A stretch of 64,000 nucleotides of DNA from an uncultured Roseovarius sp. (GTDB lineage: Bacteria > Pseudomonadota > Alphaproteobacteria > Rhodobacterales > Rhodobacteraceae), in assembly GCA_951812895.1 (NCBI GenBank), contig OX638333.1, positions 3,576,001 to 3,640,000 of the forward strand, given 5' to 3'. Positions 47,567 to 54,715 of the stretch are shown one piece after another. Under the pieces are notes generated by a model. It searched no databases. It was not told the DNA's origin and saw nothing but the letters and a program-made list of their open reading frames with translations. A program made the translations under genes and the position numbers. Position 1 is the first letter of the stretch. The number at the start of each line of letters is the position of its first letter.

Positions 47567-48979
47567 ATGAGCGATATTCTGATTGTTGATGATGAGCGGG
47601 ACATACGGGAACTGATTTCCGATATCCTGAAAGACGAAGGTTATTCCACGCGGTTAGCCGGAAATTCGGATGACTGCATGGCCGAGATTGCCTCTGAGGC
47701 TCCGGCGCTGCTGATCCTCGATATCTGGCTGAAAGACAGCAATATGGACGGGATCGACATCCTCAAAACCGTCAAACGGGACTATCCCGATGTGCCGGTG
47801 GTCATCATTTCCGGACACGGGAACATCGAAATTGCCGTGGCTGCGATCAAGCAGGGCGCGTATGACTTTATCGAAAAGCCCTTTAATATTGACCAGCTAA
47901 TGGTGGTCATCCGCCGCGGTATGGAAACCAGCCAATTGCGCCGTGAAAATCAGGCGCTGCGCAAACGCGAGGCTGAACCCGCCGAAATGCTGGGCGAGGG
48001 GCCGGTGTTCCGCGCATTGATCGGACAGCTGGACAAGGTGACAAAATCAAACGGTCGGGTCATGCTGTCTGGTCCGGCGGGATGTGGCAAAGAACTGGCC
48101 GCACGTTATATCCATGCCAATTCCACCCGAGCCGACGGGCCATTTGTGTGCGTCGGCTGTGCATCCATCGAATCCGACAGGATGGAAGAGGTCCTGTTTG
48201 GCCGCGAAAGCGAAGAGCGCGGGCTGGAACCCGGCCTTCTGGAAGAGGCCAATGGCGGTGTGATCTATTTTGATGAAGTCGCTGATATGCCGGTGGGCAC
48301 ACAGTCCAAAATCCTGCGGGTTCTGGTTGACCAGACCTTTTTGCGGGTCGGCGGATCAGACAAGGTTCAGGTCGATCTGCGGGTGATATCCTCAACCAGC
48401 CGTGATCTTGAAGCAGAGATTGAGGCGGAGCGCTTCCGCCGTGAACTGTTCCACAGGCTCAACGTTGTCCCGATTGAGGTGCCCAGCCTTGAAGAACGGC
48501 GCGAGGATATTCCGGCGCTGGCCGCCCATTTCATAGATGTGTTGAATCGCGAACAGGGCTTGCCCCTGCGGGATCTGAGCGCCGAGGCCAGCGCATTGTT
48601 GCAAACGATGAGTTGGCCGGGGAACGTGCGTCAGCTACGCAACGTGATCGAACGGGTGCTTATTCTGGGTGACGGAACGGACGAAATTCAGGCGCGTGAA
48701 CTGCCCGGAGAGGCCGAAGCACCAGAAGAAGAAGGCCGTGTGGTTTTGTCGGGCACCATCGCCACCATGCCCCTGCGCGAGGCGCGTGAAGCGTTTGAGC
48801 GGGAATATTTGCTGACCCAGATCAACCGGTTTGGCGGCAACATCAGCCGCACCGCCGAATTTGTTGGGATGGAGCGCAGCGCCCTTCACCGCAAACTCAA
48901 ATCACTGGGTGTTGTCACCGGCAACAAGGCGGCGAAAAACGAAGCAGACAAAGAAAAAGAGGACCAACCCGCAGGCTGA
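47567..48979 (+). CDS. ntrX: Response regulator NtrX (without GAFTGA loop)
   Basis: 470 aa. Receiver domain (ILIVDDERDIRELISDIL; phospho-Asp in LLILDIWLKDSNMDG), AAA+ domain with Walker A SGPAGCGKELAARYIH and Walker B VIYFDEVADM, and a Fis-type helix-turn-helix (GNISRTAEFVGMERSALHRK). The GAFTGA position reads GRESEERGLEPGLLEEANGG, so sigma-54 activation is unlikely. NtrYX controls nitrogen, envelope and redox functions in alphaproteobacteria. Its stop abuts that of the convergent LysR gene with no gap; the usual next gene, trkA, is about 6 kb away. Confidence 0.94.
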   Translation: MSDILIVDDERDIRELISDILKDEGYSTRLAGNSDDCMAEIASEAPALLILDIWLKDSNMDGIDILKTVKRDYPDVPVVIISGHGNIEIAVAAIKQGAYDFIEKPFNIDQLMVVIRRGMETSQLRRENQALRKREAEPAEMLGEGPVFRALIGQLDKVTKSNGRVMLSGPAGCGKELAARYIHANSTRADGPFVCVGCASIESDRMEEVLFGRESEERGLEPGLLEEANGGVIYFDEVADMPVGTQSKILRVLVDQTFLRVGGSDKVQVDLRVISSTSRDLEAEIEAERFRRELFHRLNVVPIEVPSLEERREDIPALAAHFIDVLNREQGLPLRDLSAEASALLQTMSWPGNVRQLRNVIERVLILGDGTDEIQARELPGEAEAPEEEGRVVLSGTIATMPLREAREAFEREYLLTQINRFGGNISRTAEFVGMERSALHRKLKSLGVVTGNKAAKNEADKEKEDQPAG

Positions 48980-49864
48980 TCAGTTTTCGAATTTTGACCA
49001 GTCCTGCGCCGCAATCAGTTCTTCTAACTGTTCTGCCAGGTGGCGAAAGGGTGATTTTTCGCGAATAAACAGCGAGACCTTTCTGCGGTCCTCAAGGCCC
49101 TGAATTTTGCGGAAAACCAGGTCATCCGGGGCCAGTAGAGCCACCGTTTCAGGCAGAACCGTCACCCATTTGCCAAGGCGCACCATCGAAATCAGCGACA
49201 GAGTGTTATGCGCCATCAGCCGCGCCGCCCCGGTTGCGGCAGTGAATTCCGGGGTCTCGATCAGACCGCACAGATCGTTCAGCACCAGCCCGGCATCGAC
49301 AACATCATCAATTGTCGGATCATCGCTCTGACGTCCCAAAGGATGCTCCGGTGCACAGATCAGGCCAAACCGATCTGCAAATAGCGGCCTGTTGCGTACT
49401 CCATTCAGGGTGTGATCGCCTGAGGCCACACCCAGATCAGCGTGCCCCTGAAACAACGCTGCGATCACATTTTGCGTATCGGTGTCGCGCATTTCGATCC
49501 GCAATCCGGGGTGCTGGTCGGTCAGCGTTCGTAATGTTGCCGGAAAGACCAGCCCCACCATTGAGGGAACAGAGACAATACGGATAACTCCCTGTGGTGC
49601 TTTGGCAGAGGCCTCAATCGTACGAACGGTTTCGTCAAACTGCCGCAATTGTTTTTGAGACAACTCAAATACCTGCTGACCCAGGGCAGTAAGGCGATTT
49701 TTGCGATCACTTTCAAACAGCCGTTCACCCAGATGTTCTTCAAGTTGTTTCAAAGTCATTGAGAGCGCAGACTGCGTGCGTCCAATTCTATTTGCTGCTT
49801 CCGCTAGGTTCCCGGTCTGTGCAACAATGCTGAAACACCGCAGCATTTCTATCTTGAGGGCCAT
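48980..49864 (-). CDS. LysR-family regulator of the aldehyde dehydrogenase operon
   Basis: 294 aa. Winged helix-turn-helix at the N-terminus (MLRCFSIVAQTGNLAEAANR, IGRTQSALSMTLKQLEEHLG) and a LysR effector domain (GVIRIVSVPSMVGLVFPATL, QGHADLGVASGDH, VRLGKWVTVLPETVALL). It diverges from the four-gene operon starting at 49961, 96 bases away, with a palindrome between them. The inducer is presumably the substrate or a product of that operon. Confidence 0.9.
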   Translation of the reverse strand: MALKIEMLRCFSIVAQTGNLAEAANRIGRTQSALSMTLKQLEEHLGERLFESDRKNRLTALGQQVFELSQKQLRQFDETVRTIEASAKAPQGVIRIVSVPSMVGLVFPATLRTLTDQHPGLRIEMRDTDTQNVIAALFQGHADLGVASGDHTLNGVRNRPLFADRFGLICAPEHPLGRQSDDPTIDDVVDAGLVLNDLCGLIETPEFTAATGAARLMAHNTLSLISMVRLGKWVTVLPETVALLAPDDLVFRKIQGLEDRRKVSLFIREKSPFRHLAEQLEELIAAQDWSKFEN

Positions 49865-49879
49865 GCTTCAACTATCCTG

Positions 49880-49898
49880 AAATTATGTTCAATAATTT
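49880..49898. promoter_or_regulatory. Palindrome in the LysR / aldehyde dehydrogenase gap
   Basis: AAATTAT, GTTCA, ATAATTT: perfect 7-bp arms around five bases, 16 bases upstream of the LysR start codon. A plausible LysR contact site; the classical T-N11-A can be read inside it. Confidence 0.45.
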
Positions 49899-49960
49899 GA
49901 ATTTGACTGATGTTAACTCAAAAGTCCATGTTGCACTAAAATCTAGCCTTGGAAGAGAAC

Positions 49961-51412
49961 ATGTCTGACACAAAACTGAACCTGATTGCCGGCGAATGGC
50001 TGGCTGGCGAAGCCGAGATCGAAAACCGTAACCCTTCTGATCTGAGCGAGCTGGTGGGTATGTTCGCACAAGCCAGCGCAGACCAGCTTGACGCAACGCT
50101 TGTCCGTGCGCGTGAGGCCCAGGCTGAATGGGCCGCATACGGGTTAGAGCGCAAGCAAGCTGTTTTGAACGCCATAGGCAACGAATTGATGAGCCGCGCA
50201 GACGAACTGGGAACATTGCTGAGCCGCGAAGAGGGCAAGCCGCAGGCCGAAGGTAAGGGCGAAGTTTACCGCGCTGGCCAGTTCTTTACATACTATGCCG
50301 CCGAATGCCTGCGCCAGCTTGGCGAGAATGCGGACAGTGTTCGTGACGGTATCGAAATTGACGTGCGGCGCGAGCCGGTGGGCGTTGTCGCAGTTATCAG
50401 CCCATGGAACTTCCCAACGGCGACGGCATCTTGGAAAATTGCACCGGCCCTTTGCTATGGCAACGCCGTGGTGTGGAAGCCTGCCAACGTTACTCCGGCA
50501 TCCGCTGTTGCACTGGCAGAAATCATTGATCGTCAGGACATCCCCAAAGGTCTCTTTAGCCTTGTAATGGGCTCGGGCCGCTCAATCGGTCAGCGCCTGG
50601 TTGAAAGTCCGATGGTTAACGCGATTTCCTTCACGGGTTCGGTACCGGTCGGCAAAGGCATTGCGTCGGCTGCGATCCAGAATCTGACCAAAGTTCAGAT
50701 GGAAATGGGTTCTAAAAACGCGTTTGTGGTGATGGACGATGCTGATCTTGATCTGGCCGTCACATTGTCACTGGGCGGGGCCTTTGGTGGTTCGGGTCAG
50801 AAATGCACCGCATCTTCGCGCCTGATTGTTCATCAGAACATCCATGACGCCTTTGTCGAAAAACTGGTTGCGGGCGCACAGGCGATGAAGGTTGGCCATT
50901 GTCTGGAGCCGGGTATCCAGATGGGTCCGGTTGTAAGCGAGCAGCAGCTTAACGAAAACCTGGCCTACAGTGATCTGGGCCGGTCTGAAGGGGCCGAACT
51001 TGCCTGTGGTGGCGTTCGTCTGGATATGCCACATGACGGCTACTACATGTCGCCCGGCGTGTTCCTGAACACCAACAACGATATGCGCATCAACCGCGAA
51101 GAAATGTTCGCACCGCTGACCTCTGTAATCAAAGTGGGTAACTATGACGAAGCACTGGCCACGGTCAACGATACCAATTTCGGTCTGACCTCTGGTATCG
51201 CGACGCAGTCGCTGGCGCGTGCCACACATTTCCGGCGTAATGCCCGGACTGGCGTCGTCACGATCAACCTGCCAACCGCCGGCACTGATTACCACGTGCC
51301 GTTTGGTGGCCGCGGTGACAGCTCTTATGGTCCACGCGAACAGGGTAAGGCCGCGGCAGAGTTCTACACAACCGTGAAAACCGCCTATATCAGCGCAGGA
51401 ACACCAGTCTGA
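49961..51412 (+). CDS. Aldehyde dehydrogenase, 2-oxoglutarate-semialdehyde dehydrogenase-like
   Basis: 483-aa NAD(P)-dependent ALDH. PWNFPTATASWKIAPALCYG, SFTGSVPVGKGIASAA and EMGSKNAFVVMDDADLDLAV carry the cofactor and Glu sites; the catalytic Cys is in GGSGQKCTASSRLIV. The end PFGGRGDSSYGPREQGKAAA followed by EFYTTVKTAY is the pattern of 2-oxoglutarate-semialdehyde dehydrogenases (sugar-acid and hydroxyproline pathways). The substrate here is inferred only from this. First gene of a coupled four-gene operon; its stop shares a base with the next start. The ATG at 49961 has GGAAGAG upstream. Confidence 0.88.
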   Translation: MSDTKLNLIAGEWLAGEAEIENRNPSDLSELVGMFAQASADQLDATLVRAREAQAEWAAYGLERKQAVLNAIGNELMSRADELGTLLSREEGKPQAEGKGEVYRAGQFFTYYAAECLRQLGENADSVRDGIEIDVRREPVGVVAVISPWNFPTATASWKIAPALCYGNAVVWKPANVTPASAVALAEIIDRQDIPKGLFSLVMGSGRSIGQRLVESPMVNAISFTGSVPVGKGIASAAIQNLTKVQMEMGSKNAFVVMDDADLDLAVTLSLGGAFGGSGQKCTASSRLIVHQNIHDAFVEKLVAGAQAMKVGHCLEPGIQMGPVVSEQQLNENLAYSDLGRSEGAELACGGVRLDMPHDGYYMSPGVFLNTNNDMRINREEMFAPLTSVIKVGNYDEALATVNDTNFGLTSGIATQSLARATHFRRNARTGVVTINLPTAGTDYHVPFGGRGDSSYGPREQGKAAAEFYTTVKTAYISAGTPV

Positions 51413-52404
51413 TGCCTCCTAAGAATCTCAGAATAGACTGTCTGCAATATGCCAACTGGTCGGAAAAGATTTTCCGCCAGTTGCGCGAAGGGAATGTGGA
51501 TGCAATTCAGGTCACCATTTCCTATCACGAGATGTTTCGTGAAACGGTACTGAATTTTGAACAATGGAACCGCTGGTTTGAACAATATCCCGATCTGATC
51601 ATGAAAGGGCAGTGGGCCAGCGACATCGACCGGGCCCGTGAAACCGGGCGTACTGCGGTATTCTTTGGCTTCCAGAATCCGGCCCCGATTGAAGATGATA
51701 TCGGTTTGGTCGAGATTGTTCACACACTGGGCGCCCGCTTTATGCAGCTGACCTATAACAACCAGTCATTGCTGGCGACCGGGTGTTACGAGGCCGAGGA
51801 TATGGGCATCACACGTATGGGCAAACAGGTCATCAAAGAGATGAACCGTGTGGGCCTTGTGGTGGATATGAGCCATTCTGCCGACCGCTCAACAATCGAA
51901 GCGGCAGATGTTTCGGAACGCCCGATCGCCATCACCCATGCCAATCCGCATGAATGGTCGCCGGCTTTGCGTAACAAGCGCGAAGAGGTCATCCGTGCTG
52001 TAACCCAGAATGGCGGAATGATGGGCTTTTCGATTTATCCTCATCACCTGAAAAACAAGACAGATTGCACATTGCAATGCTTTTGCGAAATGATCGCGCG
52101 CACTGCAGAAAAATATGGCGTTTCCCATCTTGGAATTGGCACTGACCTTTGTCAGGATCAACCTGACAGCATCGTTGAATGGATGCGTGTCGGCCGCTGG
52201 AGCAAAGAGATTGACTATGGCGAAGGATCTGCCAGCAATCCCGGGTTTCCACCTATGCCGGATTGGTTTCGTGACAACCGCGATTTCGGTAATATCGAGG
52301 CCGGTTTACGCGAAGTCGGCATGAGCGCGGAAGAGGTAGAGGCGATAATGGGTGGCAACTGGTACCGGTTCTACGCTGAAAACTTTGGACCACAGGGGGG
52401 CTAA
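51412..52404 (+). CDS. Peptidase M19 (membrane dipeptidase)-like protein with altered metal site
   Basis: 330-aa TIM-barrel protein of the renal dipeptidase family: FMQLTYNNQSLLATGCYEAE, GLVVDMSHSADRSTIEAADV, PIAITHANPHEWSPALRNKR, GMMGFSIYPHHL and LGIGTDLCQD. The N-terminal HxD zinc motif of the family is replaced by IDCLQY, and the bridging-Glu position (usually G-x-E-G) appears to read GFQNPAP. It may therefore use one metal or none, or act on a different substrate. Relatives occur next to dimethylglycine catabolic genes in Pseudomonas. Coupled at both ends (TGATG, TAATG). Confidence 0.8.
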   Translation: MPPKNLRIDCLQYANWSEKIFRQLREGNVDAIQVTISYHEMFRETVLNFEQWNRWFEQYPDLIMKGQWASDIDRARETGRTAVFFGFQNPAPIEDDIGLVEIVHTLGARFMQLTYNNQSLLATGCYEAEDMGITRMGKQVIKEMNRVGLVVDMSHSADRSTIEAADVSERPIAITHANPHEWSPALRNKREEVIRAVTQNGGMMGFSIYPHHLKNKTDCTLQCFCEMIARTAEKYGVSHLGIGTDLCQDQPDSIVEWMRVGRWSKEIDYGEGSASNPGFPPMPDWFRDNRDFGNIEAGLREVGMSAEEVEAIMGGNWYRFYAENFGPQGG

Positions 52405-54086
52405 TGACGAAGCAGGAGCAGATCTCACGCCGCGATCCAGCGCGGGTTATGCGGTTAAAGCGACTGGGGTCGCTCCATCAATGTCGTCTTAGCTTTATGC
52501 GAACGTTGTCCCGACGTATGGCGGGTGAAGGATGGAAATTCTCGCGCCCTGTATTTGATATAGACGAAAAGGGCGTGGGCCACGCTGTATACTCCGCCCA
52601 TGGCCCTGAACGGACTTATTCGCTGGTTGCCTTTGCCCATGATCTGCCTGCGGAACTGCGCTCTGATCGTGTGATCGCAGAGGCATGGGATTGTACCTTT
52701 TCTCTGTATGATGGGGTGCCGGATACTGCAGACATCGACCGTTTACGCCAGAACGTACCCCTGCAGGAGGCGGGCCGCATCAGCAAAACCGAACTGTCCT
52801 TGTCTCGCGCCAACCGCTCTGTGCGGCTTTGGGCGCATGTTGTGGATGCTTTGACGGCTGGTGAACAGCCCGATCCGGAACAGATTGATCAGGTCGGCTA
52901 TCTGATGCGCACCACGGCTGTCTATGGTTCTGGCAAATTTGGCGCGGCGGATCGGCAGATGATCGAAGATCGAGAAGAGCTGCTGGCCCCGTTTCAGGCA
53001 GAAATGCTGTCCGTCTACCTGACCCGCACCTTTGTCCGCGATCTGGTTCAGCACATGGCGAATGCCAAAGGCGGCGCCCAGACTGCAACGCTGGACGCCG
53101 CTATTGCCCGCCGCCTTGGCATTGGCAATTCCACCGGGCTTGGCATGGCGCCCTTTATCCTCAACCATCCGATCCTGTTCAGCAACTGGATCATGGCCCG
53201 GGAAGAGGCAATCGCGCGGGTGCGCAGCGTTGCAAAAGCCAGTGACGAAGAGGTTGCCCGCTTTCGCGAACTCTTTGCCCGCAGTGAGCTTTTGGTCGAA
53301 AGGTGGCGCTCGGCCCACCCAACTCAGATTGAAAAACTGGCAGATCTGCGCCGCGATCTCGAAGCGCTGAGAGCCCACCTGGAAACCGCAGATTTGCAGG
53401 AAAATAATCCTTGGAACCGGTTGATTGAGTGGAGCGAGGATGCCCTGTCTGAAGAAGGGCAGGAATTTATTGCCTCGCTGATTCTGGAGCCTTATCCCGC
53501 CCTCGTGGACGGCCTGACGCAATGCATGGCGGACAAGAACAAAGACGCATTTCGCATCGACGGCGCTATGCCGGTTGAAGAGGCGCGCAACCTGATCTCG
53601 CAATGCTTTGGCTGGGCCAAGGGGTTAAGCTGGGGCGAGCATGAAAATTGCGCGCGTGCCTGGTATGTATCCGAGGAAAAGCTCGAACCACGCATGGGTG
53701 AACGGTTCGAAGAACCGATTGCCGATTATGAACAACCGCTTGCCCCCGCGCGTGATGCCGCCGCCGCTCTGGAAGCGCTTGACGGGTGGGACGGCACGGT
53801 ACCCGTTGCCAGCTTTCTGCTGAAACACCCGGAGCATCGCCACACGGTTCGTCGCGCCCAGATGAGCCGCGTGGCTCCTTATGGTGAAATTCAGGACAAC
53901 ACCATAAGCTCTGAGATTATGCCGATCGACATGCTGCGTGCCAAACTGTCCTTTTTCGGCGCAACCCACTTTGACCCGCGGTCAGACCGTTGGGTCCGCA
54001 TTTGCATGTATGCCGGCGCGCCTTACCCGGAAGAGCTGAGTTCGGAGTCTGCGGAATTGTGGGTTTATCCGGAGTTGCCTGAATGA
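52404..54086 (+). CDS. 560-aa protein of unknown function in the ALDH operon
   Basis: No catalytic motif is recognised. The N-terminus is basic (RRDPARVMRLKRLGSLHQCR, RRMAGEGW), then come an alpha/beta part (VYSAHGPERTYSLVAFAHDL), a segment VGYLMRTTAVYGSGKFGAAD, helices rich in charged residues, and near the end TISSEIMPIDMLRAKLSFFG followed by WVRICMYAGAPYP. There is no signal peptide or membrane helix, so it should be cytosolic. The start overlaps the M19-like stop (TAATG) and the end overlaps the next gene (ATGA), so it belongs to the same pathway. Possibly an enzyme of a poorly described family. Confidence 0.85.
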   Translation: MTKQEQISRRDPARVMRLKRLGSLHQCRLSFMRTLSRRMAGEGWKFSRPVFDIDEKGVGHAVYSAHGPERTYSLVAFAHDLPAELRSDRVIAEAWDCTFSLYDGVPDTADIDRLRQNVPLQEAGRISKTELSLSRANRSVRLWAHVVDALTAGEQPDPEQIDQVGYLMRTTAVYGSGKFGAADRQMIEDREELLAPFQAEMLSVYLTRTFVRDLVQHMANAKGGAQTATLDAAIARRLGIGNSTGLGMAPFILNHPILFSNWIMAREEAIARVRSVAKASDEEVARFRELFARSELLVERWRSAHPTQIEKLADLRRDLEALRAHLETADLQENNPWNRLIEWSEDALSEEGQEFIASLILEPYPALVDGLTQCMADKNKDAFRIDGAMPVEEARNLISQCFGWAKGLSWGEHENCARAWYVSEEKLEPRMGERFEEPIADYEQPLAPARDAAAALEALDGWDGTVPVASFLLKHPEHRHTVRRAQMSRVAPYGEIQDNTISSEIMPIDMLRAKLSFFGATHFDPRSDRWVRICMYAGAPYPEELSSESAELWVYPELPE

Positions 54087-54715
54087 GTTATTCTCTGAAC
54101 GAAGTCGAAGGGACCTCGAAAAAGGCAACCCGCGGCGCCGGTTACAGCTGGGGATTGGCGGAAGAAGCGGCCAAAGCCACGCGGTTCTTGTGCAGAAACA
54201 GCTGCGATGGGGTTGCTGCGTTGGCGACTGTGCTGCGTGAAACGGATGGCAAAAATTTGACAGATTTAACTCCGCAATCCACGGACGACGATTGGCGTGG
54301 TGCACCCGTGCTTTGCCCGTTAATCGCCGGGGCTTCGGTTGCCGATCATGCCTTTCTCCTTCCGACCAAGCCTTTGATATTGAACGATGTTATTTGCCCA
54401 GAGCTGTTACTGCCTTTCGTGGCCTTGGCTGCATCCCAGTTAGAGCAAAACGTTGCGTTGACCTGTGGCGAAATCCATTGCGTAACCGATGGCAAGTCCC
54501 TGTCTTTGAATGGTGACTTGCCTGATCGCGCTTCAATGGTTTCGATCCAACTTGAAAGCGCCCCTTGTTCGAATACCAATCCAACGGCAGACCGCGCCCA
54601 CCCCGCGCCGGAAACCTGGGCAGCGCTCCTTACACTCGCGCATCGTACATACGCTCCGGCGACAGCTGAATCGCGTGAAAAGGGTGCCGGGGCAGGGCTC
54701 ACCGATAACGACTAA
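54083..54715 (+). CDS. DUF3726-like protein, partner of the 560-aa gene
   Basis: 210 aa. SLNEVEGTSKKATRGAGYSW followed by GLAEEAAKATRFL matches the start I associate with DUF3726 proteins of marine alphaproteobacteria. The remainder is hydrophobic-patterned without a clear active site; one LPFVALAASQLEQNVALTCG segment resembles a beta-helix-beta unit. Coupled to the previous gene by ATGA overlap. Fourth and last gene of the operon, followed by a hairpin. Function unknown. Confidence 0.75.
   Translation: MSYSLNEVEGTSKKATRGAGYSWGLAEEAAKATRFLCRNSCDGVAALATVLRETDGKNLTDLTPQSTDDDWRGAPVLCPLIAGASVADHAFLLPTKPLILNDVICPELLLPFVALAASQLEQNVALTCGEIHCVTDGKSLSLNGDLPDRASMVSIQLESAPCSNTNPTADRAHPAPETWAALLTLAHRTYAPATAESREKGAGAGLTDND

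Follow-up and report, generated by a model that had tools for sequence, protein, structure and literature searches.

A LysR-linked four-gene operon of a Roseovarius genome as a probable reduced variant of a marine homarine-catabolism operon

We suggest that a four-gene operon with a divergent LysR gene, found in the genome of an uncultured Roseovarius sp., directs the catabolism of homarine (N-methylpicolinate), or of a very near relative, to N-methylglutamate or 2-oxoglutarate, and that it works like the reported homABCDER operon minus one gene; we put the probability of this reading at about 0.72. Homarine is a methylated pyridine compound from marine plankton, and this reading links two unannotated protein families to what is probably the breakdown of a nitrogen compound abundant in the sea.

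Results

The window, that is, the whole stretch of 64,000 nucleotides that was analysed, contains the following features:

ends at 48979: NtrX, upstream flank of the operon region
48980-49864, minus strand: LysR-family regulator, divergent from the operon (Pfam HTH_1, 2.8e-18; LysR_substrate, 4.4e-28)
49865-49960: LysR/ALDH intergenic control region, 96 bp (alignment of 52 intergenic regions)
49961-51412, plus strand: aldehyde dehydrogenase, ALDH (Pfam Aldedh, 6e-150)
51412-52404, plus strand: M19-like protein of the 2I5G subfamily (Pfam Peptidase_M19, 7e-69)
52404-54086, plus strand: P560, 560 amino acids (no family match in Pfam or NCBIfam)
54083-54715, plus strand: DUF3726 protein, 210 residues (Pfam DUF3726, 8e-21)
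starts at about 54930: TrkA, downstream flank of the operon region

The open reading frames confirm the preliminary description of a LysR gene and four coupled genes between ntrX and trkA, with all three overlapping junctions as claimed (TGATG at 51410-51414, TAATG at 52402-52406 and ATGA at 54083-54086), and the Pfam matches bear out the families named there: LysR, ALDH, M19-like and DUF3726. For the ALDH gene we chose an ATG start, a TTG at 49949 being likewise open.

The gene set is conserved in Rhodobacterales and beyond. Eighty named loci, the best of 84 with relatives of P560 in the GTDB genome set, were compared, together with 30 loci derived from the 32 matching genomes among 60 relatives searched; P560 was present in the window's own genome and in 31 of 35 genomes of the same genus, and in none of 24 outside it. 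The four families do co-occur elsewhere: of the 80 named loci, some of which are cut by contig ends, 60 have ALDH, M19, P560 and DUF3726 in this order, and 58 of the 60 also carry a LysR gene. The 30 loci from relatives do not reach far enough to include ALDH; M19, P560 and DUF3726 are all present in 95 of the 110 loci. With its order so conserved, the coupling of the operon is not due to chance. Matches to P560 also come from four genomes of 1.2-1.4 Mb, of which three are single contigs, and from one of 2,753,527 bp, sizes that we take to be those of SAR11 and SAR116/Puniceispirillum.

The position of the operon is another matter. In 19 of 23 same-genus relatives trkA lies within 1.5 kb downstream of ntrX, and operon genes were found within that 1.5 kb in none of the 23. 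At the P560 loci searched, many with flanks of 1.5 kb, the window's own copies were the sole instances of trkA, trkH, hfq or a close ntrX. Placement beside ntrX was thus seen in this genome only, so the argument that the operon sits fittingly next to nitrogen regulators fails, and that it lies between ntrX and trkA looks like an accident of this genome. The distance between ntrX and trkA, measured between alignment edges, spans about 140-1430 bp across the same 19 genomes, as if this gap often takes in DNA.

A divergent LysR-ALDH pair separated by 20-300 bp was found at 62 loci, of which the 52 with gaps of 90-103 bp were aligned and the ten with gaps of other lengths were excluded. In the window, this gap contains a TTCA-N7-TGAA dyad at 49867-49881 and a conserved TTTGACTGAT at 49902-49911, and the columns of TTCA, CTGAA and TTTGACTGAT are at least 80% conserved in the alignment. 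Dyad and TTTGACTGAT are the probable operator and promoter.

Among 60 operon orthologues of the ALDH, 54 show 81-91% identity. The protein had been described as being of the 2-oxoglutarate-semialdehyde type, which holds as a resemblance and not as membership: the two best NCBIfam models, NF052305 and NF042993, score 477 and 472 bits, under their cut-offs of 750 and 770. It is in this sense alone that it resembles 2-oxoglutarate-semialdehyde and 2,5-dioxovalerate dehydrogenases.

The altered metal site noticed earlier in the M19-like protein is real, and is common to its closest solved relative, 2I5G (E=1e-52). The canonical metal ligands of M19 proteins, as in renal dipeptidase, are an HxD motif and a glutamate. 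Here the match to the Pfam profile starts at its position 32, and no HxD occurs in the N-terminus; in an alignment with the dipeptidase GliJ the glutamate is replaced by Gln88 and one histidine by Tyr115, whereas His155, His176 and Asp245 are retained. While 2I5G has lost the same canonical ligands, it lacks in alignment the His211, His212, Cys219 and Cys225 of the operon protein, residues conserved in 98% or more of 96 orthologues. We take 2I5G to be PA5396, which presumably lies near the glycine-betaine catabolism genes of Pseudomonas aeruginosa, and we propose that the M19-like protein is a hydrolase for an amide or imine. The only other M19 match of the window's genome (L190:1486-2487, at about 3773900) likewise lacks HxD and glutamate by eye.

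P560 had been called an orphan. This is true of its annotation, since nothing in Pfam exceeded its cut-off and NCBIfam gave no match, and untrue as a statement of rarity, since 53 of 385 genomes of the class, and 29 of 398 in a sample of the phylum, have a match to a P560 profile. A sequence search of the PDB detected no solved relative; a single-chain structure model (pLDDT 85.7, pTM 0.89) had no clear match among PDB folds. There are 138 invariant columns among 62 sequences, with no recognised cofactor or oxygenase motif.

DUF3726 is a Pfam family of unknown function that was absent from all 14 control genomes. A DUF3726-like gene scoring above 12 bits lies directly 3' of P560 in 155 of the 159 loci with room for one, a count that includes duplicates, L142 and L160 being the same place, and that leaves aside three more loci cut by ends; this newly noted pairing extends to clusters whose substrates appear to be different. 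In three of the other four loci (L114, L115 and L166) a similar divergent gene can be seen by eye, and in L168 none. The predicted structure of DUF3726 has the fold of the Ldh_2 family, which takes in ureidoglycolate and piperideine-2-carboxylate dehydrogenases, but it lacks that family's coenzyme domain and catalytic histidine. At 210 residues it is about 120 shorter than Ldh_2 proteins (~336), and the SHG stretch found in operon-linked Ldh_2 proteins is missing. DUF3726 is therefore predicted to be an Ldh_2-type fold minus the coenzyme-binding domain.

Neighbouring genes were counted in 100 loci (L031-L110 and L149-L168) by tblastn at 60 bits or more anywhere in the locus, where family matches may be unrelated members, many loci are close kin and ends cut some. 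M19 was matched in 97 loci and Ldh_2 in 63; L151 and L152 have neither ALDH nor Ldh_2 nearby, and L153 and L154 no Ldh_2. Transporters of the BCCT type were matched in 35 loci and ProX in 13, with either in 48. BCCT genes exist in 13 of 21 genomes searched, with one to four matches each (one gene sometimes being counted twice), and with so few per genome chance would place one at about 1% of loci by a rough hand estimate. Within the genus, BCCT adjoins P560 in five of the 11 P560-carrying genomes searched for it, the match lying directly before P560 (G001, G006, G007, G010 and G012). Genes of the sox type stand beside a minority of operons only: SoxA was matched in seven of the 100 loci, that of L152 being 31% identical and far from the operon, and plasmid records add further cases.

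The fullest clusters in annotated records are those of Roseateles XES5, Aminobacter pAA01, Ruegeria TM1040, Phaeobacter gallaeciensis and P. inhibens DSM 17395. XES5, whose record carries the flag UNVERIFIED_ORG, brings together sox genes, an AraC-type regulator, LysR, ALDH, M19, P560, DUF3726, Ldh, a glycine-betaine ABC transporter, purU and folD; pAA01 has the same five enzymes along with the transporter, and the other three have sox genes, an HTH regulator, LysR, the operon and BCCT. To oxidise N-methylamino acids such as sarcosine or N-methylglutamate, a cell needs enzymes of the sox type together with PurU and FolD. These neighbours point to the uptake of a quaternary N-methyl compound, its conversion to an N-methylamino acid, and demethylation onto folate. 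The proposal of one pathway for a small nitrogenous compound thus gains support from co-occurrence, from the betaine-type transporters and from the genes for N-methylamino-acid oxidation in relatives.

In TM1040, an AraC-type gene with a DJ-1 domain adjoins the sox genes. The window's genome encodes a sox alpha subunit that shares 68% identity with that of TM1040 over 416 amino acids, and near the sox genes to which it belongs lies a 30% identical relative of the TM1040 regulator. One paper (PMC13390433) places an AraC-type gene, tmaR, beside mgdABCD and gives Mgd a part in homarine catabolism. Genes of the sox type adjoin the operon in several relatives, and it is their AraC-type neighbour that suggests they encode Mgd.

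Compared with these clusters, the operon of the window is a reduced copy of the common marine one. Neither transporter nor sox genes adjoin it, and no close Ldh_2 gene was found in the genome, the best match having 42% identity. A BCCT gene 76% identical to an operon-linked one lies about 20 kb downstream; the genome also has three sarcosine-oxidase alpha-like genes over the cut-off and a gene matching TIGR03105, the model that we take to be gmaS. Having four genes and LysR with no close Ldh_2, it is best regarded as a variant that works like the homarine operon and not as a full member.

The P560-DUF3726 pair also occurs in other company. In Sinorhizobium meliloti and Aminobacter pAA02, divergent pairs lie together with M19 and ABC genes of the polyamine type; at L115 and on a Mesorhizobium plasmid, others accompany peptide-type ABC genes and ALDH. 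On the S. meliloti megaplasmid (L230:10220-14387) the genes are IclR, P560-like, DUF3726-like, M19, a polyamine-type ABC transporter, an aminotransferase and a semialdehyde dehydrogenase. The window's genome has a second pair (P560 41% identical) from 3398057 onward (L113:8031-10069), with a peptide-type ABC transporter, a CocE/NonD-like hydrolase and a LysR gene as neighbours; neither ALDH nor M19 was found at that locus. With peptide- or polyamine-type transporters also beside it, the pair alone does not mean homarine. A P560 tree made by a quick method, with long branches and many open forks, sets the betaine-type operons apart from these other pairs.

Discussion

From the observed gene order, conservation, families, neighbours and predicted folds we infer a substrate, an order of steps, a chemistry and a mode of regulation. 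Going from homarine, with six chain carbons, to N-methylglutamate, with five, requires the loss of one carbon. Import of the pyridinium betaine would fall to a transporter of the BCCT or ProXWV type, and the divergent LysR protein would probably sense this substrate and activate the operon. P560 with DUF3726 would dearomatise the ring and open it between C5 and C6, giving an N-formyl-N-methyl dehydroglutamate semialdehyde; cleavage at this bond would provide an amide for the M19-like protein, a glutamate-type semialdehyde for ALDH and an imine for Ldh_2. ALDH would then convert the aldehyde to the glutamate skeleton and the M19-like hydrolase would take off the formyl group. In most relatives an imine reductase of the Ldh_2 family could yield N-methylglutamate, to be converted to glutamate and methylene-folate by a sarcosine-oxidase-type N-methylglutamate dehydrogenase. 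Genomes that lack Ldh_2, the window's included, predict a methylamine-releasing branch, in which the imine would hydrolyse to 2-oxoglutarate and methylamine, and the latter might be taken up by GmaS and Mgd.

With the other steps assigned, ring opening falls to P560 and DUF3726 by elimination; we regard the two as partners, with P560 as our guess for the core enzyme. The prediction is of a catalyst with no known mechanism, in which DUF3726 is a cut-down dehydrogenase and P560 has no detectable solved relative. More tentatively, and at somewhat less than even odds, the two may form an obligate two-subunit enzyme class, new and part-built from an Ldh_2 protein shorn of its coenzyme domain, that cleaves N-heterocycles or rings akin to them. 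Evolution would then have drawn this enzyme, in many cases along with M19-like hydrolases, into several different catabolic routes: that of marine homarine, and those of the Sinorhizobium megaplasmids and the peptide-transporter clusters.

The same type of pathway could serve another quaternary N-methyl or osmolyte substrate, such as trigonelline, proline or hydroxyproline betaine, carnitine or an ectoine. Many betaines are substrates of BCCT and ProXWV transporters, pathways of the proline-betaine type also employ ALDH and Ldh_2 families, and ectoine-utilisation-like genes, an EutA-like and M24 peptidase pair, lie near the operon in four of 110 loci (L035, L040, L061 and L074), the EutA-like protein scoring under its family cut-off. 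However, the conserved core shows no recurring demethylase or proline dehydrogenase, two of ten annotated regions contained an aromatic-ring-hydroxylating dioxygenase, and sox, purU and folD as neighbours fit an N-methylamino acid product, so we consider another substrate unlikely. That the peptides of a scavenging route are the substrate, the M19 protein being a true dipeptidase, is highly improbable: the Pfam match and the peptide-type ABC genes beside some distant P560 pairs would suit it, but the canonical HxD and glutamate are absent, and the transporters at near neighbours are of the betaine type.

It is also possible, if quite improbable, that the operon is a paralogue in which the same enzymes act on a different substrate. 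The window's copy locally lacks Ldh_2, transporter and sox genes, its genome has the second pair, and of the two operons of this type in P. inhibens DSM 17395 one is accompanied by BCCT and sox genes and the other is bare of them. Yet the window's P560 falls in a tree group of 31 rows, 23 with Ldh_2 (SH-aLRT 87, an open fork), whereas that of the bare P. inhibens operon groups with L085 at 99, and a BCCT gene of the operon-linked type is still in the window's genome. Both P. inhibens operons (L229 and L238) are on one plasmid, each at most about 10 kb from dmdD, a DMSP-degradation gene.

We therefore return to homarine and to the known systems. The term "uncharacterised" in the preliminary description is probably outdated, as PMC13390433 cites a 2026 paper on a homarine catabolism pathway (doi 10.1038/s41564-026-02313-7), which has apparently been published. 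On the present reading, the published homarine genes would be of these same families. The operon homABCDER of Rhodobacterales, SAR11 and SAR116, with N-methylglutamate as product, has reportedly been described by Ferrer-Gonzalez et al. in Nature Microbiology in 2026. Its name would match the LysR and five enzyme genes, Ldh_2 among them, seen in relatives; its marine alphaproteobacterial distribution is alike as well, and so, probably, is its link to enzymes of the sarcosine-oxidase or N-methylglutamate-dehydrogenase type, while the window's copy has four structural genes and LysR against five and a regulator. The trigonelline pathway (tgn genes) said to exist in Acinetobacter offers a second likeness, in that an N-methylpyridinium ring would be opened to an N-formyl aldehyde and then passed to an ALDH and a hydrolase; it differs in that the operon core has, in place of a flavin oxygenase pair, P560 and DUF3726.
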